Of a stretch of DNA of 64,000 nucleotides, positions 8,970-35,119 are shown piece by piece. The position numbers and the translations under genes are program-made. Source of the DNA: Verrucomicrobiales bacterium (GTDB lineage: Bacteria; Verrucomicrobiota; Verrucomicrobiia; Verrucomicrobiales; V1-33). The first letter of the stretch is position 1; each line of letters starts with the position of its first letter. The notes under the pieces were generated by a model. That model searched no databases, was not told the DNA's origin, and was given only the letters and a program-made list of their open reading frames with translations. The stretch is from NCBI GenBank assembly GCA_018003315.1, contig JAGNEJ010000003.1:62001-126000 (forward strand). Reading direction: 5' to 3'.

Positions 8970-11603
8970 ATGAATACGCACCCATTGCTTCTTGCTGCAT
9001 TACTCGGTTTTGCTGCGATCACCTCCGCCAGCGCCGCAACGGTTTATTGGGATTCCAATGCGGATACTCCGGGTGCCGGGGTTGCTCCGGCGGGGGCATG
9101 GGACGCCAGTCCATTTTGGAGTCCGGACTTCGACGGTCTGGCGGCGGGCACCGCGAACTGGGTGCCTGGAGACACGGCGGTATTTTCCGCCGGCACAGAT
9201 GCCACCGATGCCTTCACCGTTTCCGGCAATGCCACCGCATCAGGAATCGTTGTCGAAGAAGGGGCGCTGACCATTTCAGGGACGATCGCGCTGGGGACGG
9301 GAACAGTCCACGTCGGTGCGGGAGCTTCGCTCACCACCAACAGTTCGCTGCGCATTTCCACCGCGGTCGGTTCTGTTTATACCCTGGATGGAGGAAAACT
9401 GGAAACCACGAACACGGGAAATGCCGGATCGTTTATTGACACGGACTCCACGATTTTCCTGGCAGGCGGGGGCGGAACGATCGCCTACTCCGGGACGGTG
9501 CTGAACATCATCAACTTCACCGGCGCCAACCCTGCGGGCACCACCATTTCCGGTCCCGGTGCCCTGACAAAAGCGGGAACCGGCGTCATCGCAGTCGCCA
9601 CCGCCTGCTCGTATGGTGGAGCCACCATCATCAACGAAGGGGAACTTCGCATCCGGACCACGCCCAACCGGCTGCCCTTCACCACCCCGGTCACCGTGAC
9701 GAACCCGGGAATTCTGAATCTCAACGGCGTCAGCCAGCAGATTGGCTCGCTGACCGGAAACGGGAGCGTGGGCCTGGCCAACGCAACATTGACCGTGGGT
9801 GACGGCAGCGATTTCGCTTTTGACGGCGTCATCAAAGACACGGCCAACGCCGGAGCCGGCGGCTCCGCGGCCACTGGGGGCAAACTGGCCAAGGTGGGCA
9901 CCGGGACCATGACCATCAATGGCCTGAATGCCCATACGGGATTGACCACGCTCTTTGAGGGCGGTCTTACCGTGGCTTCCGGGGCTTCCCTTTCTGCCGC
10001 CACCGCCAACCTGACCGTGGACGGTGGAATTCTGAATTTGAACAACGCGGCGCAGACCATCAAAGGCCTGGCAGGCATTGGTGGGACCATCCATCTCAGC
10101 GCGGGACATGTGCTGACCTCCGACCCCGTTTCCAGCACCACCTGCGCCAGCACCATTTCCGGTCCCGGGGGCCTGACGCGGCTGAATGCCGATGCCACCA
10201 ACCGCACCCTGACGCTGACGGGTGCGAACACCTACGACGGCATCACCACCGTTGCCAAAGGCATCATCGCCGTCGGTTCGGCCACGGCCCTCGGCAGCAC
10301 AACGGGCGACACCGATGTTCAAGCGACTGGCGGCGAGATTCTGTTCACCGGTGCCACGACCAATTTCACCGTCGCCGAACCGTTCCGCATCGCTGGAACC
10401 GGAAGCACCGACAACGGAGCCCTGGCCGTCATTGCCGGGGCGAATCCCACCCTGACCGGAGCGATCACTCTGACCGGCGATGCCACGGTGACCGTTTCCA
10501 GCAGCGCTTCAGCCGGGTTCACCAGTTTCGCAGCGCCTGGAAACCACACCCTGACCCTGGCCGGCGGGAACAATGCCGCCGGCTTCAAGGTCATCACCGG
10601 CGCACTCGATCTGGGCACCGGCGGATTGATCAAAACGCAGGGCGGCAAGTGGACGCTCAACGGCACCAGCCCCTACAGCGGACCGACGACCATCAGCGCC
10701 GGCATCCTCCAGGTGGACGGCGCACTCACCGCCAGTCCGGTTAGCGTGAACACCGGCGGCACCCTGGGCGGCAGCGGCACTCTCGGCGCGGCTGCCACCG
10801 TCGCATCCGGAGGCACCGTCGCCCCCGGTGCCAGCGCGGGCACGCTCAGCTTCGGCTCCACTCTGACGTTTGACGCCGGTTCATTCTACGAAGCGGAAAT
10901 CACGGGTGCGGCGGCCAGTGACAAGGTGAACGTTGCCGGTGTCCTTGCCGCCAACGGCACCATCAAGGTGGTGCTCGCCGGCTACAGCCCCGTCGGTGGC
11001 GAGACCTATGATCTCGCGGATGCCGCTTCCATCACGGGCGTTCCCGTATTCGACTTCAGTGCCGCCGCTCTGGGCGTCGGCCTCACCTGGGATACGTCCC
11101 AGTTTCTGACCAGCGGCACCATCAAAGTGTCCGGTGCCGGCGATCCCTACAGCGCCTGGGCCGCAGCCAGCGGCGTCACTGGCGGACGGAATGACGACGA
11201 TGACAAGGACGGTGCCAGCAACCTCCTGGAGTTCGCCACCAACTCCCATCCCCTGACCAACAGCGCTGGTCCCCGCGTTTATGGCAAACTGCACCCGCTC
11301 GGCGGCGACCAGGTGCTGACCCTGACCATTGCCGCCCGCAGCGGTGCTGTGTTCTCCGGTCCAGTCCGGCAGACCGCCACCAGGGACACGGTGGTGTACA
11401 CCGTGGAAGGCAGCGACGATCTCGCCGTCTGGAATACGGTCGTCATTTCCGAACTCAACGCCGTGGATTCCGCCGCGGTGCAGGCTGCCCTCGGACTTCC
11501 GGCACTTGACGTCGGCTGGGAATGGCACACCTTCCGCACCGACGGCGGCACCTCCACCGACCCGGGCGACTTTGCCCGCCTCGCCGTCGGAACAGATCCC
11601 TAA
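8970..11603 (+). CDS. Secreted protein with autotransporter-associated beta-strand repeats (paralogue of the upstream gene)
   Basis: 877 residues with a signal peptide of about 23 residues (LLGFAAITSASA|A). The first mature residues, TVYWDSNADTPGAG, start a beta-helical PATR body (PGALTKAGTGVIAVATA, GGKLAKVGTGTMTINGLNAHTG, ILQVDGALTASPVSV). The last ~150 residues are nearly identical to those of the upstream 1864-residue protein: same DDDDKDGASNLLEFATNSHP loop, same ELNAVDSAAVQAALGLP block, ending FARLAVGTDP. The pair probably arose by duplication or gene conversion with expansion of the repeat body in the larger copy. A surface or extracellular structural role is inferred. Confidence 0.85.
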   Translation: MNTHPLLLAALLGFAAITSASAATVYWDSNADTPGAGVAPAGAWDASPFWSPDFDGLAAGTANWVPGDTAVFSAGTDATDAFTVSGNATASGIVVEEGALTISGTIALGTGTVHVGAGASLTTNSSLRISTAVGSVYTLDGGKLETTNTGNAGSFIDTDSTIFLAGGGGTIAYSGTVLNIINFTGANPAGTTISGPGALTKAGTGVIAVATACSYGGATIINEGELRIRTTPNRLPFTTPVTVTNPGILNLNGVSQQIGSLTGNGSVGLANATLTVGDGSDFAFDGVIKDTANAGAGGSAATGGKLAKVGTGTMTINGLNAHTGLTTLFEGGLTVASGASLSAATANLTVDGGILNLNNAAQTIKGLAGIGGTIHLSAGHVLTSDPVSSTTCASTISGPGGLTRLNADATNRTLTLTGANTYDGITTVAKGIIAVGSATALGSTTGDTDVQATGGEILFTGATTNFTVAEPFRIAGTGSTDNGALAVIAGANPTLTGAITLTGDATVTVSSSASAGFTSFAAPGNHTLTLAGGNNAAGFKVITGALDLGTGGLIKTQGGKWTLNGTSPYSGPTTISAGILQVDGALTASPVSVNTGGTLGGSGTLGAAATVASGGTVAPGASAGTLSFGSTLTFDAGSFYEAEITGAAASDKVNVAGVLAANGTIKVVLAGYSPVGGETYDLADAASITGVPVFDFSAAALGVGLTWDTSQFLTSGTIKVSGAGDPYSAWAAASGVTGGRNDDDDKDGASNLLEFATNSHPLTNSAGPRVYGKLHPLGGDQVLTLTIAARSGAVFSGPVRQTATRDTVVYTVEGSDDLAVWNTVVISELNAVDSAAVQAALGLPALDVGWEWHTFRTDGGTSTDPGDFARLAVGTDP

Positions 11604-11675
11604 CCGGTGGCTGGACCGCACGCGGCCTGGTGCCGGTTGAAGACACCGGAAAACGGGACCCACTTCACTGCCTGC

Positions 11676-12290
11676 ATGCGCACACTGGTCATCACGGGTG
11701 GCATCGCCACCGGAAAAACAACGTTTGGACGCCTGCTGATGGAGAAGGTCGGTTCCGTCGGCGTTTTATTCGACTGCGACCGTGCGGTTCACGAGTTGTT
11801 GACAAGACCCGCCATTGTGGGAAAAGTGGCCGCGTCGCTGGGTGACGGGGTTCTGGCACCCGATGGCAGCCTTGACCGCAGCCGAACCAGCGCCGTTGTA
11901 TTTGCCGATTCCGGCAAACGCCGGGCCTTGGAAGCGATCCTCCACCCGCTGGTTCGCGAGGCTTGTCACGAAGCCGGGCACCGTGCCGCGGACACCGGCA
12001 TTTCCTACTTTTTTACTGATGTTCCCCTTTACTTTGAAACGGACTTCCCACTGGAGTCCGACCTGGTCGTCCTCGTCGCCTGCGGGCCGGACGTGCAGCG
12101 CCAGCGGCTGCTTGCCCGCACTGGCGCGGCCGATGCCCACCGTGTCGAGCGACGCCTCGCCGCCCAGATTCCCATTCTCGAAAAAATCCCCCGGGCCGGT
12201 GCCGTCATCTGGAACGGCGGCTCCCTCCAGTCACTCGCACAACAGACCGACTACTTCCTATCATGGTTGACTCAGAAACTTCCACCCTGA
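11676..12290 (+). CDS. coaE: Dephospho-CoA kinase
   Basis: Phosphorylates the 3'-hydroxyl of dephospho-CoA, the last step of coenzyme A biosynthesis. 204 residues, the usual length. The P-loop ITGGIATGKTT starts at residue 6, CDRAVHELL is the DAD-like substrate motif region, and HPLVREACHEA and TDVPLYFE match the conserved second half of the family. The ATG at 11676 is chosen over an in-frame upstream extension because it places the P-loop at the normal distance. The end overlaps the start of rho by 28 bp, so the two are probably co-transcribed. Confidence 0.92.
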   Translation: MRTLVITGGIATGKTTFGRLLMEKVGSVGVLFDCDRAVHELLTRPAIVGKVAASLGDGVLAPDGSLDRSRTSAVVFADSGKRRALEAILHPLVREACHEAGHRAADTGISYFFTDVPLYFETDFPLESDLVVLVACGPDVQRQRLLARTGAADAHRVERRLAAQIPILEKIPRAGAVIWNGGSLQSLAQQTDYFLSWLTQKLPP

Positions 12291-29363: not shown

Positions 29364-29503
29364 GAGGGGGTGGGGGAGCCCCGGCAGGCGGATGCCGGAG
29401 GGACCGCCTGCAAACACCACATTCCCCGGTTCTTCAAGTGGTTTGCGCAGCCGGGGCAACCTCGCATTTGCAAATCCACCGGGGCGCTTTACGCATAGCC
29501 AGC

Positions 29504-30244
29504 ATGAGCAAGGAACATTTCTGGCAGGGGCTGCGGCCCGAAGCAGTGGCCGCCGTTGATCAGCGTGACTATTCCAAGCCGCCTCTGGAGGAACGCTTGC
29601 GCACCTCCGGCGTGGAGGCCCGGGAAATTGCCGGGCGGGACCTGGGCACTGCGGGCATTCCCGGCGTGGTGGTGTTTCCGCGCAAGGTTTTCGCACAGCA
29701 CCACCGGGGCTTTTTTGGCGAGTTTGCCCGGGAAACGGAAGGCCCTCTGCATTCCATCGGCCTGTGGCCGCGGCAATGGGCCACTGCCCGCATGTTTGCC
29801 GGCACTGCGAAGGGTTTTCACATTCACCCGCCGCACATTCCGCAGGGCACCGACCCCGCCGCATGGTTCCGCCGCCTGTTCGTGGAGGAGCCGGGAAATT
29901 GCACGCTTCGCCCCTATGATCGCGAACAGTGGGACGCCATGTTTTTCATCCAGGGCATTGTCGAAATGCTACTGGTCGATGAACGACCTGGTCTGCCGCG
30001 CAATGTCATGCGATTTTTGATATACGGCGATGATCTTCCTGGTGACAACAACGCCGGCGTGATCATTCCCGCCGGGGTTGCCCATGCCCTTCGCAGCGCC
30101 AGTTCCCAGGACCTCCTCATGGTCTATGGCACTTCCACCACCTACCTTCCGGAAAACGAGGGCCGCATCGCCCACAGCGTGGAGTTTGCTCCGCTTCCCG
30201 CGGTGTGGGATGCCTATGTTTTCGGTGCTTCGAACCAGGGTTGA
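29504..30244 (+). CDS. RmlC-like cupin (divergent dTDP-4-dehydrorhamnose 3,5-epimerase relative)
   Basis: 246 residues. The second half follows the RmlC plan: FHIHPPHIPQ (metal/active-site-like His region), AMFFIQGIVEMLLVDERPG for the interaction-with-lipid-carrier strand, GVIIPAGVAHALRSASSQDLLMVYGTS, and YLPENEGRI. It is longer than standard RmlC (~180) because of an N-terminal extension, and no other dTDP-rhamnose genes are nearby, so the substrate is uncertain. It diverges from pth across 140 bp. Confidence 0.65.
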   Translation: MSKEHFWQGLRPEAVAAVDQRDYSKPPLEERLRTSGVEAREIAGRDLGTAGIPGVVVFPRKVFAQHHRGFFGEFARETEGPLHSIGLWPRQWATARMFAGTAKGFHIHPPHIPQGTDPAAWFRRLFVEEPGNCTLRPYDREQWDAMFFIQGIVEMLLVDERPGLPRNVMRFLIYGDDLPGDNNAGVIIPAGVAHALRSASSQDLLMVYGTSTTYLPENEGRIAHSVEFAPLPAVWDAYVFGASNQG

Positions 30245-30276
30245 CGTCGCTGACGGTCTCCCCGCACCTCCAGCAA

Positions 30277-30606
30277 ATGCCACCGCCCGAAGAAACCCGC
30301 TGGGACTTCCACGCCTACGACCGCACCGTGGTCGATGCCGTCTGGGCAAATGCACAACCCGTGGTCGGAAACGATGCCGCGCTCTGGCGCAAAGACGAAT
30401 GCGGTGCTTGGATCCACCGCCTCGAATACGGCAGCCGCTCCTCCCAGTTCGGCTGGGAAATTTACGACCCCAATCTCGCTCCCTCCCAGTTTGGTCTCGC
30501 CGCCCTGCGACCGCTCCAGTGGCAGAACTACCTCGACAAAGTCGCGTTCGAAAACGCCTTCCGGATGACCGCGGACGGCCTCCGCAACGTCCGACGACTG
30601 CTCTGA
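30277..30606 (+). CDS. Small HNH-like protein with an incomplete active site
   Basis: 109 residues. ALWRKDECGAWIHRLEYG, SQFGWEIYDPN and ALRPLQWQNYLDK have the layout of small HNH endonuclease domains, in which W-K-D-x-C-G-x-x-I, GWEIDH and NLxPLxWxxN recur. The EIDH histidine is replaced (EIYD), so the metal-dependent nuclease centre is probably broken. It may be an inactive binding module. It starts 32 bp after the cupin gene and is co-directional with it. Confidence 0.55.
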   Translation: MPPPEETRWDFHAYDRTVVDAVWANAQPVVGNDAALWRKDECGAWIHRLEYGSRSSQFGWEIYDPNLAPSQFGLAALRPLQWQNYLDKVAFENAFRMTADGLRNVRRLL

Positions 30607-30646
30607 CCCATCCTCGCCCAGCGGGGGACGACCATTCAAATTGAAG

Positions 30647-30675
30647 TTGACATGCCAAGGGCACCTGGGTAAAGG
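30647..30675 (+). promoter_or_regulatory. Candidate promoter for the flavin-redox cluster
   Basis: TTGACA at 30647-30652 (perfect -35) is followed after 17 bp by TAAAGG at 30670-30675 (weak -10). It lies about 60-90 bp upstream of the beta-barrel gene at 30735, in the gap after the HNH-like gene. Confidence 0.4.
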
Positions 30676-30734
30676 AATGAGACAGAGTCTCAAAATCAAT
30701 CACAACGGTGCTTGCAACCAAAAATCCATTTCCC

Positions 30735-31586
30735 ATGAACCTGCGCTACACCTCTCTTGCTGCTGTCATTTTGGCTGCGGGCCTGCTTGGTCCTGTTGCC
30801 ACGACCCATGCCGATGAAAACATGTTCGGTTACGTGTATGGTGCCGACACCCTGCCCAAGGGGAAGTTTGAACTCTACAACTGGACCACCTGGCGACATG
30901 ACAAGAATCAGGGGGAATACGATGCTTTCGATGTTCAGTTCGAGCTGGAATACGGCATCACCGACCGGTTTCAGACCAGCACCTATCTGGTATTCGACGG
31001 ACGGGACCAAAGCGGACTGGGTTCGCACGGGCTGGAGGACATCAGCGATTTTCGTTTTGATGGGTTGAAACAGGCGTTCAAATACAATGTTCTGAGCACC
31101 TACAAGGACCCCATCGGCCTCTCGCTCTATTTCGAGCCCGGATACAGTCGTTTCCACAAGGTGACGGGCGAGCGCCTGGATGAATTTGAAATCGAAACGA
31201 AGCTCATCCTGCAGAAAAACTTCCTGGATGACACCCTGCTCTGGGCGCTGAACGTGACGCCGGAATTTGAATGGTATTTTCCGGACGGAGAATCCAGCGA
31301 AACCGAATTCATCCTCGAACTCTCCTCCGGCCTCTCCTATCGCGTTGCCAAAAACTGGTTTGTCGGTGTGGAAACACGGTACCACACGGAGTTTCCGGAA
31401 TATGGTGCCCAGGAACACCAGGCGATTTTCCTCGGGCCGAACATTCACTACGGCGGCAAGAAATGGTGGTTCACCCTCACCTGGCTGCCCCAGATCTGGG
31501 GGGAGCCGAACGAAAACGGTTCCAGTCTGCACTTCGGTGAACACGAACGTTCCGAAGTCCGCCTGAAGGTGGGATTCAACTTCTGA
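30735..31586 (+). CDS. Predicted outer-membrane beta-barrel protein
   Basis: 283 residues with a signal peptide (SLAAVILAAGLLGPVATTHA|DE). The mature chain is a series of amphipathic strands rich in aromatic residues: KGKFELYNWTTWRHD, AFDVQFELEYGITDRFQTST, DPIGLSLYFEPGYSRFHK, ALNVTPEFEWYFP, LSYRVAKNWFVGVETRYHT and a final Phe (EVRLKVGFNF), the typical C-terminal signature of outer-membrane barrels. About 12 strands are plausible. It is the first gene of the redox cluster (FMN-binding protein, ApbE, DUF4405). The ATG at 30735 is chosen; GTG 30708 is in frame. Confidence 0.7.
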   Translation: MNLRYTSLAAVILAAGLLGPVATTHADENMFGYVYGADTLPKGKFELYNWTTWRHDKNQGEYDAFDVQFELEYGITDRFQTSTYLVFDGRDQSGLGSHGLEDISDFRFDGLKQAFKYNVLSTYKDPIGLSLYFEPGYSRFHKVTGERLDEFEIETKLILQKNFLDDTLLWALNVTPEFEWYFPDGESSETEFILELSSGLSYRVAKNWFVGVETRYHTEFPEYGAQEHQAIFLGPNIHYGGKKWWFTLTWLPQIWGEPNENGSSLHFGEHERSEVRLKVGFNF

Positions 31587-31610
31587 TGGTGCCCCGCTCT
31601 TTCTGACGCC

Positions 31611-32138
31611 ATGCGAAAGCGCAATTTCCTGAAAGTATTCGTGCCCGCGGTGGCTTCCGGGCTGGGCTGGGCGCGCAGCGAAACGTTTCTGACTTCGGAA
31701 CAGGCAGCCGCCCAATTGTGGCCGGGCAAGAAGCTCACCCCAGCGCCGGTCACACTGACCTCAGAACAGAAGTCGGCCATTGCCAAGGCCTCCGGTGTCA
31801 GGGTGCGCGGCAATGAAGTCAAGGCGTGGAAAGTCGAGGGCGGCGGCTGGTTGATCGTGGACAACGTCGTGGGCAAGCATGAATACATCGACTTTGCCAT
31901 GGCGATCACGGCGGGCGGGGCGGTGAAAGGCGTGGAAATCCTAACCTACCGTGAAACCTACGGCGGGGAAGTGCGCAATGCCAAGTGGCGTTCCCAGTTC
32001 ACCGGGAAAAACAGCGCTGCGCCGCTCAAGGTGGACACGGACATCAAAAATATTTCCGGAGCCACCCTGTCCTGCGTCCATGTCTCCGAAGGGGTGAAGC
32101 GGTTGCTGCACACCTGGGAGGTTGCCTTAAAAGGCTGA
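31611..32138 (+). CDS. FMN-binding domain protein with a flavinylation motif
   Basis: 175 residues with an N-terminal export signal (RKRNFLKVFVPAVASGLGWA). The FMN-binding domain covers about 75-168: VEGGGWLIVDNVVGKHEY, AITAGGAVKGVEILTYRE and the SGATLS motif at residues 149-154. In RnfG/NqrC-type domains ApbE attaches FMN through a phosphoester to the Thr of this motif, so Thr152 is the predicted site. The gene is followed 4 bp later by apbE. It is an extracytoplasmic electron carrier by inference. Confidence 0.88.
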   Translation: MRKRNFLKVFVPAVASGLGWARSETFLTSEQAAAQLWPGKKLTPAPVTLTSEQKSAIAKASGVRVRGNEVKAWKVEGGGWLIVDNVVGKHEYIDFAMAITAGGAVKGVEILTYRETYGGEVRNAKWRSQFTGKNSAAPLKVDTDIKNISGATLSCVHVSEGVKRLLHTWEVALKG

Positions 32139-32142
32139 CTAC

Positions 32143-33033
32143 ATGAAAAACAACCTGTCCGTGCATCGCATCAAACGCTGCCAGCCGCTGCTGGGGACGT
32201 TTGTGGAAATCACGCTGGAGGGAGCACAGTCGGAAGCCTGGCTGCATCAGGCGGCGGGGAAAACGTTCCACCTGATCGAAAGCGTGCAGAAACTCATGAG
32301 TTTTCACGATCCGGACAGCGATGTGTCCCGTCTGAATCAGTGCGGCTACATCAGTCCGCTGCAGGTGCATCCCTGGACCCGGCAGGTGCTGGAACGGGCC
32401 GTGCGCCTGAGCGAGACGACCGACGGCGCTTTTGACATCACCCTGGTGCCGCGCCTCGTGGCCTCCGGGTTGCTGCCGCGCCACGGTCGCGCACAGGGGC
32501 TCAGCGAAGCCGGACGGTGGGCGGAAATTGAATTTCCTGGCGAAAACACCGTGTTTTTCCGCCGTCCGTTGAAAATCGACCTTGGCGGCATCGCCAAGGG
32601 ATTTGCCGTGGACAAAGCGATCGACTACCTGGCGTCCCGCGGCCTGACCCGAGCCGTGGTCAATGCGGGAGGGGACCTGCGCGTGCATGGCTCCTCCCAG
32701 TTGGAAATCGCCGTGCGTCACCCCGCCATGCCGCATCGGGACACCATTCCCGCCGTGATGCTGCGGCCTGCGGTGGCCACTTCCGCCGCCTATTTTGTCC
32801 GGATGCGGACCGGGGTCACCCGTGCCAACCACATCATTCATCCGCGGACTGGTCGGATGCTGCGCACCAATGACAGTGTTTCCGTCTTCGCCCCCACCTG
32901 CGTGCAGGCGGATGCCCTGACAAAAGCGGTGCTGCTGGCGCCGCAGCCGGTCTGGAACCGCGTGCTGGCGGAGAATGACAGCCTGGCCCTCTTCATTACT
33001 CGGAAGGGCGAACAGGTGCTGTATCCGAACTGA
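32143..33033 (+). CDS. apbE: FAD:protein FMN transferase
   Basis: Uses FAD and Mg2+ to attach FMN covalently to Thr/Ser of target proteins. 296 residues. Family motifs are present: QPLLGTFVEITLEG, MSFHDPDSDVSRLN, DGAFDITLVPRLV, KIDLGGIAKGFAVDKAIDYL, VVNAGGDLRVHG, ATSAAYFVRM and NHIIHPRTGRM, and VQADALTKAVLL near the end. No clear signal peptide or lipobox is seen at the chosen start, which is unusual for an enzyme that normally works outside the cytoplasm. Its likely substrate is the upstream FMN-binding protein. Confidence 0.93.
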   Translation: MKNNLSVHRIKRCQPLLGTFVEITLEGAQSEAWLHQAAGKTFHLIESVQKLMSFHDPDSDVSRLNQCGYISPLQVHPWTRQVLERAVRLSETTDGAFDITLVPRLVASGLLPRHGRAQGLSEAGRWAEIEFPGENTVFFRRPLKIDLGGIAKGFAVDKAIDYLASRGLTRAVVNAGGDLRVHGSSQLEIAVRHPAMPHRDTIPAVMLRPAVATSAAYFVRMRTGVTRANHIIHPRTGRMLRTNDSVSVFAPTCVQADALTKAVLLAPQPVWNRVLAENDSLALFITRKGEQVLYPN

Positions 33034-33052
33034 CCGCCTCCGTTTCCTCCGC

Positions 33053-33538
33053 ATGGCTCGTGTTGCGCTACGTTTTCCCCGCAGAGCCAAATGGCTGCTC
33101 TATGCCGTCGCCCTAACCAGCATGGTCAGCGGCATCGGCTGGTATGTCCTGAACCGCTGGTTTCAAGTGGTCGATGAATTCGACATCGTGCAGAAGCATC
33201 CCTGGCAGACCACTCTCTTGAAGGTGCACGGAGCTTCCGCTTTTCTGGTGCTCATTGGATTTGGCTATCTGCTGGCCAGCCACATCCACGTCGGCTGGAG
33301 ATCCCGCCGCAACCGGGTCTTCGGCATCCTGCTCGTTGCGGATGTGACCGTGCAAATCCTTTCGGGCTACGGGCTCTATTATGCGGGTGTGGACCGGCGG
33401 GAAAACATTGCCTCCCTGCATTTTTATTCCGGTTTGGCGCTTCCGGTGCTCCTCATTGCCCATGTTCTCCTTGGGCACCGCCAGCGCCGCGTTCAGGATG
33501 CCAGGCGCCTGGGTGCAGCATCGCCGGTCAATTCCTGA
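33053..33538 (+). CDS. DUF4405-like four-helix membrane protein, candidate b-type cytochrome
   Basis: 161 residues with four hydrophobic segments (about 14-34, 57-76, 89-110, 121-141). His residues lie at helix ends and in pairs: H59 in KVHGASAF, H77/H79 in ASHIHVGW, H123 in SLHFYSG and H137 in LIAHVLLGH. The 14-residue spacing of H123 and H137 and the placement of H59/H77 suit transmembrane haem b coordination. Placed after the FMN-binding protein and ApbE, it could pass quinol or haem electrons to the exported flavoprotein. Haem binding is inferred. Confidence 0.65.
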   Translation: MARVALRFPRRAKWLLYAVALTSMVSGIGWYVLNRWFQVVDEFDIVQKHPWQTTLLKVHGASAFLVLIGFGYLLASHIHVGWRSRRNRVFGILLVADVTVQILSGYGLYYAGVDRRENIASLHFYSGLALPVLLIAHVLLGHRQRRVQDARRLGAASPVNS

Positions 33539-33543
33539 TGGCG

Positions 33544-33575
33544 CGCCGTCACGGACTGCGCACCGGTTGACGGCG
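33544..33575 (+). terminator. Hairpin after the redox cluster, overlapping the xylB upstream region
   Basis: CGCCGTCA (33544-33551) pairs perfectly with TGACGGCG (33568-33575). It lies just after the stop of the DUF4405 gene and overlaps a TTGACG (33567-33572) that could be a -35 for xylB. Without a T-run it is only a weak terminator candidate; a regulatory role is possible. Confidence 0.35.
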
Positions 33576-33619
33576 GAAATCTTGTTGCCACATTGGCAGT
33601 CACATCCACCGGAGCACCC

Positions 33620-35119
33620 ATGTATTTCCTAGGCATCGACAGCGGAACCCAGAGCAGCAAGGCCATCGTCATCGATCTGGAGGACGGAAGGATCGTGGCG
33701 CAGGCCGCGCAAAAATATGGTCTCATCGACGGTCTGCCGCCTGGCCATCTGGAGCAGCATCCGCAGCACTGGACCGCCGCGGTGGATGCCGTCATCGCTG
33801 ACTGCGTGGAGCAACTCGGCAGCCGCAGGAGTGCCATCCGGGGAATCGGTGTCAGCGGACAGCAGCATGGGCTGGTGCCGCTGGACCGCGAGGGAAATCC
33901 GGTGCGTCCCGCCAAACTCTGGTGCGACACGTCCACCGCCGCAGAGTGTGAAGAGCTGGCTGCTGCCTTTGGCGGAGCAGCCGGGCTCATTGAACTTGCC
34001 GGAAACGCCATTCCTCCCGGTTTCACCGCACCCAAGATTCTCTGGCTGAAAAAGCACGAGCCCGCAAATTTCAACCGCACCTGCAGCATCCTCCTCCCGC
34101 ATGATTATTTGAATTTCCACCTCACCGGCAGCAAGCGCATGGAATACGGGGACGCTTCCGGGACCGGGCTCCTCAACGTGCGCCGCCGCCAATGGTGTGA
34201 AGCGCTCACGGATTTTATCGATCCCCGGGTCATCGAAATGCTGCCGCCGCTTGGCTCCAGTCTGGAACCGCATGGCGAACTGCGGCCCGAACTGAGGGAG
34301 CGCTGGGGACTTGAAAAAGGCGTCATCGTCTCGGCAGGCGGCGGCGACAACATGATGGGAGCCATCGGCACCGGAAACGTTTGTCAGGGCGTGGTTACCG
34401 CCAGCCTCGGAACCTCCGGCACGCTGTATGCCTGCAGCGCGACACCGGTGGTTGATCCGAAGGGCGAAGTCGCCGCCTTTTGTGACAGCGCGGACCAATG
34501 GATGCCGCTGGTCTGCACCATGAATGTGACTGTCCTAACCGAACAGGTGCGCGGGCTGTTCCAGTGGGATCACCCAACCTTGGAAACCCATTTTGCCGCC
34601 ACTCCGGCCGGTGCCGATGGGTTGACGTTTCTTCCCTATCTGAACGGCGAACGCACCCCGAACCTTCCCAAAGGCAGCGGCGTGCTTCACGGTCTGACCA
34701 TGGATAACATGACTCCATCCCACATCGCCCGCGCGGCCGTGGAAGGCGTCACGGTGGGGCTGGCCTACGGCCTGAAGCGCTTTCGGGACCTGGGTCTCAC
34801 CCCCACAGAAATCCGGCTCACTGGCGGTGGCAGTAACAGCCGCACCTGGAGGCAGATTGCCGCGGACAGTTTCGGTGTTCCCGTTGTCTGCCTGGAAACG
34901 GCGGAAGGTGCCGGACTGGGTGCCGCCATCCAGGCCGCCTGCGTGGCCTTGCAGGAGTCCGGGCAAGTCCAGAGTCTGCCCGAACTGTGCTCCCGCCTGG
35001 TAAAGCCAGCCTCCGACTCTCGGGTCGAGCCCGATCCGGCCCGCCAGTCCCTGTATGCCGCCCAGTTGAAACGGCAGATGGATCTCACCCGCGCGCTTTC
35101 CACTGCCGGATACTTGTAA
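33620..35119 (+). CDS. xylB: Xylulokinase (FGGY family)
   Basis: Phosphorylates D-xylulose to xylulose 5-phosphate. 499 residues with both FGGY domains: the N-terminal nucleotide-site GIDSGTQSSKAIVIDL, GIGVSGQQHGLVPLD (substrate region), LWCDTSTAAECEEL, HDYLNFHLTG and the catalytic-Asp region YGDASGTGLLNVR. The C-terminal half has GGGDNMMGAIGTG, SLGTSGTLYA, FLPYLNGERTPNLP and RLTGGGSNSRTWRQIAAD. GGAG lies 5 bp before the ATG at 33620. No xylose isomerase or transporter is adjacent, so the sugar (xylulose versus another ketose) should be held open. Confidence 0.88.
   Translation: MYFLGIDSGTQSSKAIVIDLEDGRIVAQAAQKYGLIDGLPPGHLEQHPQHWTAAVDAVIADCVEQLGSRRSAIRGIGVSGQQHGLVPLDREGNPVRPAKLWCDTSTAAECEELAAAFGGAAGLIELAGNAIPPGFTAPKILWLKKHEPANFNRTCSILLPHDYLNFHLTGSKRMEYGDASGTGLLNVRRRQWCEALTDFIDPRVIEMLPPLGSSLEPHGELRPELRERWGLEKGVIVSAGGGDNMMGAIGTGNVCQGVVTASLGTSGTLYACSATPVVDPKGEVAAFCDSADQWMPLVCTMNVTVLTEQVRGLFQWDHPTLETHFAATPAGADGLTFLPYLNGERTPNLPKGSGVLHGLTMDNMTPSHIARAAVEGVTVGLAYGLKRFRDLGLTPTEIRLTGGGSNSRTWRQIAADSFGVPVVCLETAEGAGLGAAIQAACVALQESGQVQSLPELCSRLVKPASDSRVEPDPARQSLYAAQLKRQMDLTRALSTAGYL

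Follow-up and report, generated by a model that had tools for sequence, protein, structure and literature searches.

The 64,000-nucleotide (nt) stretch of DNA analysed here, which we call the window, lies on contig C142 of a 5.09-Mb Verrucomicrobiales genome. Within it, four consecutive genes on the plus strand (30735-33538) encode a candidate outer-membrane beta-barrel of the family DUF6662, an exported electron carrier that binds flavin mononucleotide (FMN), an ApbE flavin transferase and a small cytochrome b-like membrane protein. This four-gene module probably helps the cell to reduce and import iron under scarcity. More specifically, and with a probability of roughly 65%, we read it as a flavin-based ferric reductase that is controlled by iron starvation and has its own outer-membrane barrel. 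The number, order and strand of the genes given in the original prediction were confirmed, and the gaps between them are only 24, 4 and 19 nt.

The first gene (30735-31586, plus strand) encodes a protein of 283 amino acids that scores 148.2 bits against the Pfam family DUF6662 (PF20367), well above the curated cut-off of 27. The assignment as a barrel is based on this match together with a signal-like N-terminus, a phenylalanine as the C-terminal residue and a match to OMP_b-brl, which at 24.6 bits is under its cut-off of 28.7. To find related clusters we used a profile of the carrier built from seven sequences (A2). At an E-value of 1e-8, matches were present in 13 of 141 relatives and, across the phylum, in 32 of 387 genomes. 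Those above 90 bits belong to 11 loci; 15 weaker matches with loci (L062 and L076-L089) and 4 without were left out of the full-width reading. All proteobacterial evidence comes from a plasmid collection, where a tblastn search with the carrier returned 9 records and five distinct strong clusters; four of the records were Bradyrhizobium with equal scores, of which one was opened, and the Massilia match was weak. Together the 11 loci and the five plasmid clusters give 16 strong clusters.

The complete order of DUF6662 barrel, carrier, ApbE and cytochrome was found in seven of these 16, i.e. in the window and at six other loci: BvORR106, G152, G428, G147 and plasmids of Sphingomonas parapaucimobilis and Novosphingobium resinovorum. 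Looking for the same order in other genomes, as the original prediction had advised, thus revealed a real conserved unit. The gene directly 5' of the carrier encodes a DUF6662 protein in eight strong clusters, another porin-like protein in three (Bradyrhizobium, Ideonella and Methylocystis) and a TonB receptor in one (G081), and there is no barrel in the remaining four (G030, G051, G039 and the second G138 copy). The association with a barrel, which had been singled out as the unusual feature of the cluster, is genuine and informative. In Bradyrhizobium, Ideonella and Methylocystis the order is kept, the first protein being longer; by eye, all three end in an aromatic residue as is the case for outer-membrane proteins. 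The Ideonella protein reaches 22.2 bits against the porin family BBP2 (cut-off 26.2), and no informative Pfam match was obtained for the other two. In carrier clusters that are more distantly related, the gene before the carrier exceeds the Porin_O_P cut-off in L102 (42.3 bits) and L109 (28.7 bits) and stays under it in L106 and L108, while L101 and L112 showed no informative Pfam match. As the preceding gene is porin-like in several of these distant clusters, the barrel slot before the carrier tends to be retained while the barrel family appears to switch. We also noticed that a second porin-like family occupies this slot before FMN carriers: L101, L103 and L111 have a NELHEP...IIPTTWREN-like stretch in common, which by eye is loosely present in the three plasmid proteins (L043-L045) as well. 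The four-gene order is absent from the Methylobacterium (L041) and Massilia (L046) loci.

The sequence in front of the module points to iron. A Fur-like box, AATGAGACAGAGTCTCAAA, is located at 30676-30694 on the plus strand, 40 nt upstream of the barrel start. It agrees with the consensus at 12 of 14 positions (shuffling: 2 of 201 including the real one, p 0.010) and we consider it a candidate Fur site; the genome contains two Fur-family genes. Its core, TGAGANNNNNTCTCA, occurs at three places in the genome, compared to none for the backward-read control. One of these (L048, G000:C61:8677-8691) is situated 12 nt before two tandem feoA-like open reading frames (ORFs) followed by feoB. The third copy (L047, G000:C53:13059-13073) stands before an unrelated ORF with an end that by eye resembles a PEP-CTERM anchor. 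We then searched 400-nt regions around the first gene of related loci for the best match to AATGAGANNNNNTCTCATT, which we take to be the Fur consensus, using a threshold of 11 of 14 positions. Boxes were detected in 11 of 22 first-gene regions (controls 1, 0 and 0). A further set of 11 DUF6662-like loci contributed 7 (controls 0, 1 and 0), which brings the total to 18 of 33 first genes (controls 1, 1 and 0 of 33), or 17 of 32 without the window. Counted over the DUF6662-like loci, the threshold was reached in 15 of 26. Upstream of feoB we found 8 boxes in 26 regions (controls 0, 1 and 0), a count that left out four of the 30 feoB loci, among those adjoining a barrel. The relatives are not independent, since G299, G273 and G406 belong to one genus.

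Another indication of a role in iron uptake is the identity of the neighbouring genes. A feoB gene is found within ∼1.5 kb of the barrel or carrier at eight loci. The order is feoB-porin-carrier-cytochrome in L103 and L111, feoA-feoB-porin-carrier in L102, barrel-feoA-feoB in L115, L116 and L118 and barrel-CxxCH-feoB in L114, where the FeoB frame has only ∼271 amino acids; in L098 feoB is divergent. FeoB was confirmed by Pfam in L098, L114 and L115 and by a FeoB_N search, FeoA by pairwise profile or by eye. FeoB_N was present in 29 of the 32 genomes searched, in 26 of those 29 as a single copy. Assuming uniform placement, the chance estimate is 5e-10 for 5 of 26 DUF6662-like loci and 5e-6 when collapsed to lineages (3 of 22); the estimate was run with 23 carrier loci, of which the present count is 25 (L090-L112, the window and L021). 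The iron permease FTR1 adjoins the barrel or carrier in two loci of relatives. In G290, a genome without FeoB_N, it directly precedes the barrel (48.5 bits), and a Methylocella plasmid carries a barrel, a cupredoxin and FTR1.

We also surveyed the DUF6662 barrels themselves. The 141 and 387 genomes yielded 26 loci, all of which were examined, three of them on short contigs. The next gene on the same strand encodes an FMN carrier in 6 of the 26 and a CxxCH frame of 107 to 202 codons in 12. The motif YxxxCxxCHxxEP is common to 10 of these 12 frames, and by eye five of the CxxCH proteins resemble lipoproteins. Pfam support is weak: of six CxxCH proteins scanned, only those of L160 and L158 exceed the cut-off of Cytochrom_C. 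For the other eight loci we observed feoA-feoB next to the barrel in L115, L116 and L118, FTR1 in L117, where a CxxCH frame outside the 12 counted overlaps the barrel frame, and a binding protein, a TonB receptor and PepSY_TM in L120, while L113 ends at a contig edge. None of these partners, nor an FMN carrier or CxxCH frame, follows the barrel in L159 and L119. The small CxxCH protein may represent the heme counterpart of the flavin module, and this pattern suggests that the two types of carrier are interchangeable behind DUF6662 barrels. Two arrangements deserve a separate record. A barrel followed by a small CxxCH protein occurs in L154-L158, L160-L164, L114 and L121, many with a Fur-like box. 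In L120 (1514-6315) the barrel, the binding protein (phosphate-type), the TonB receptor and PepSY_TM stand behind a 13/14 Fur-like box.

The second gene (31611-32138, plus strand) encodes the exported carrier of 175 amino acids, which scores 41.8 bits against FMN_bind (PF04205, cut-off 22); a PDB sequence search with it led to RnfG/NqrC, whereas two other PDB sequence searches gave nothing useful. Flavinylation is predicted at Thr152. The original numbering of this residue was right and the threonine is kept in all 30 aligned homologues, the Sphingomonas carrier reading SGGT at the site. The third gene (32143-33033, plus strand) encodes ApbE, a protein of 296 amino acids with 174.8 bits against PF02424 (cut-off 25.6) in which the motifs ATS, DLGGIAKG and ADALTK are all retained. 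Judged by hydropathy only, we found no signal peptide or lipobox on this ApbE: at most 4 extra codons are available before the start and there is no hydrophobic stretch. The same combination of an ApbE without a signal-like N-terminus beside an exported FMN carrier was seen at 32143-33033 and in 14 homologous loci. Among the module ApbEs above 200 bits, none of 15 has a signal-like N-terminus and their carriers have one, as far as can be told from a crude hydropathy measure that is not a signal predictor and leaves a small margin (highest ApbE 1.46, lowest carrier 1.50). The absence of such an N-terminus suggests that the flavin is loaded in the cytoplasm, before export of the carrier. In Klebsiella a cytosolic ApbE acts on a cytosolic target (PMC12052999); pairing a cytosolic ApbE with an exported target would be an unusual arrangement.

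The fourth gene (33053-33538, plus strand) encodes a membrane protein of 161 amino acids. Its score against cytochrome b561 (PF01292) is 31.4 bits and thus just above the cut-off of 30.1; three scanned homologues that list this family score between 20.6 and 23.1 bits. The protein had been labelled DUF4405. With 22.5 bits against PF14358 it remains below the cut-off of 26.7, so that the label describes a resemblance only, expressed in the four central histidines, which are kept. Strict membership was rejected on account of this score and of four modelled helices compared to six. PepSY-like or MsrQ-like membership was rejected as well, as none of four proteins matched PepSY (PF03929/PF16357) or PF01794. 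The histidines that had been likened to heme ligands (H59, H77, H123 and H137) are the same in all 16 homologues. A structure prediction of the protein returned a medium-quality model (predicted local distance difference test score, pLDDT, 66.6) with four helices at 10-41, 50-81, 85-110 and 113-155. These limits place the four histidines on helices 2 and 4, and two bis-histidine hemes would fit. A Foldseek search with the model gave no match at an E-value of 0.001, and the best VIA-align hit was a designed bundle (Z 12.3, root-mean-square deviation 2.8 over 137), a score that is uninformative for helical bundles. We therefore claim no fold relation.

Based on these observations the following sequence of events can be proposed. 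When iron drops, release of Fur from the box at 30676 would allow joint transcription of the four genes, as we infer from the presence of this box and the close packing of the genes. The membrane protein would take up electrons, most likely from quinol, and pass them across two b hemes with the four histidines as ligands, presumably paired as H59/H123 and H77/H137. ApbE would attach FMN to the carrier at Thr152, perhaps in the cytoplasm prior to export, and the carrier, on the periplasmic side, would reduce Fe(III) or a ferric chelate. The barrel may serve as the entry point for the iron or as the site of its reduction. Fe(II) could then reach the cytoplasm through FeoB, whose gene lies elsewhere in the genome and is preceded by a box of the same type. 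A more general version of this scheme is tentative: DUF6662 barrels might provide the outer-membrane part of an iron entry system that does without TonB. Each barrel would cooperate with one small carrier of covalent FMN or heme c, Fe(III) would be reduced at the barrel or immediately behind it, and Fe(II) would proceed to FeoB or FTR1, depending on which of these inner-membrane permeases the cell possesses; the flavin carrier would be loaded by cytoplasmic ApbE before export.

Several observations weigh against the ferric reductase. The consensus AATGAGANNNNNTCTCATT was chosen after the window site had been seen. No box reaching the threshold was found in 15 of the 33 first-gene regions: four in the set of 11, and in the set of 22 those of BvORR106 (9/14) and Sphingomonas (8/14), which both have the full gene order, G152, G301, G030, G051, the second G138 copy, both G197 loci, G273 and G290. 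By eye, BvORR106 and Sphingomonas share a variant, GCGACT..GTCTCA, near the start, which was not counted. The barrel fold is without support from the model, which was built from two sequences only and has a pLDDT of 31. In G301 the barrel and carrier have neither ApbE nor cytochrome nearby, and the cytochrome was undetected in five strong carrier-ApbE loci (the four without a barrel and G081). The single feoB match of the window genome is on C61 and not beside the module. A cytochrome c peroxidase directly precedes the Ideonella cluster, copper oxidases are near the Methylocystis cluster and two-component systems adjoin three clusters. Finally, the carrier fails the strict form of the published flavinylation motif, D-x-x-[ST]-G-A-[ST] (PMC12052999): in D144-I-K-N-I-S-G-A-T152 the aspartate stands five residues before Ser149 instead of three and is thus displaced by two. 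Replacement of the motif aspartate had only minor effects (PMC12052999).

Some of these points, and others, could be explained differently. The original prediction had considered an extracellular acceptor as one possible destination of the electrons. The FMN carrier would then deliver them to or through the barrel, similar to a porin-cytochrome system with flavin. It fits this idea that a redox carrier comes directly after the DUF6662 barrel at 18 of the 26 loci, 6 with FMN and 12 with CxxCH. Porin-cytochrome conduits combine an outer-membrane barrel with multiheme cytochromes; they share the barrel and redox partner with the module, whereas here the partner has just one FMN or, in relatives, is a small CxxCH protein. 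The membrane is too wide to be spanned by one FMN, no CxxCH frame directly follows the window barrel, the neighbouring genes in relatives encode iron importers, and feo is preceded by the same box core. Because of the Fur-like boxes and the Feo/FTR1 neighbours the conduit was set back as first choice in favour of iron assimilation, and we regard it as unlikely. We would give similarly little weight to a general supply of periplasmic reductant, for instance to a peroxidase or for the repair of oxidised proteins, as MsrQ provides for MsrP. The Ideonella peroxidase and an electron logic like that of MsrPQ speak for it, but the window cluster has neither a peroxidase nor MsrP and the recurring neighbours are iron genes.

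Handling of copper or another metal instead of iron appears very improbable. It would account for the copper oxidases in Methylocystis, the cupredoxin near the Methylocella barrel and a ZnuA-type gene divergent from L121; however, multicopper oxidases and cupredoxins also work with iron permeases, and FeoA/FeoB and FTR1 recur across unrelated lineages. Export of iron, or protection against its excess, is hardly credible given that the partner genes are importers and the box is common to feo genes, in spite of a ferritin-like gene near the Methylocystis cluster. Iron reduction and import thus remains the reading that we prefer.

The surroundings of the module differ between the loci opened, and for this reason the FGGY kinase that starts ∼55 to 85 nt 3' of the cluster and the cupin-like gene on its 5' side were rejected as members of the unit. 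Also on the 5' side is an ORF of 133 amino acids (30205-30606) with no Pfam match. A sigma-70 scan of 29400-34000 gave 0 sites with 1.0 expected, and a tRNA scan found no tRNA. Two-component regulators were observed beside the module in L021 (10066-12225), L040 (∼9700-11776) and L044 (1616-3180), the last one annotated and the others identified by eye.

Flavinylation-linked iron reduction as such is already known. Meheust et al. 2021 implicated PepSY-like and MsrQ-like flavinylation systems in iron assimilation, and flavinylation-linked PepSY clusters are Fur-repressed in two species (PMC8238504). Like the module, these systems comprise ApbE, a flavinylated exported carrier, a heme membrane protein and iron transporters nearby; their partners are VIT1, P19/FTR1 and TonB receptors, whereas the module shows neither a PepSY nor an MsrQ match. 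For one DUF4405 protein heme b has been demonstrated (Huang et al. 2024, PMC11334425). The DUF4405 clusters of that study likewise combine apbE with a small membrane cytochrome that carries four central histidines, although those proteins have six transmembrane helices, compared to four in our model with its sub-threshold DUF4405 score. The papers examined report TonB receptors in some clusters and mention flavinylation sites at the outer membrane. A link of flavinylation to a porin-type barrel or FeoB was not found in the parts of either paper examined; the passages of PMC11334425 contain no mention of a porin, a barrel or DUF6662, and those of PMC8238504 none of FeoB, a porin or a barrel.

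Reduction in the periplasm followed by FeoB, as proposed here, has a parallel in Bradyrhizobium FsrB/FoxB, a periplasmic ferric siderophore reductase that feeds FeoAB (PMC10760861). This is a COG3182 protein, not flavin-based as described, and its outer-membrane component consists of TonB receptors. An outer-membrane protein and FeoB also act in one pathway in the ferrous OmpC-FeoB route of E. coli (PMC7315122) and in FupA-FeoB of Francisella (PMC4905997); OmpC and FupA differ from DUF6662 and have no linked flavin carrier in the parts examined. A literature search on DUF6662, with subscription papers mostly outside its range, found no paper, and the literature searched, which covered FeoB and porins in part, contains no description of a link between DUF6662 barrel, carrier and Feo. 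The DUF6662 barrel, the Feo/FTR1 linkage and the interchangeable carrier therefore look new.

The DUF6662 barrel family thereby gains a proposal for its function that can be tested, and a linked outer-membrane barrel would be an addition to flavinylation-based iron reduction. The apparent exchange of FMN carrier for CxxCH protein, and of FeoB for FTR1, may amount to a natural experiment in the passage of poorly soluble iron through the outer membrane.

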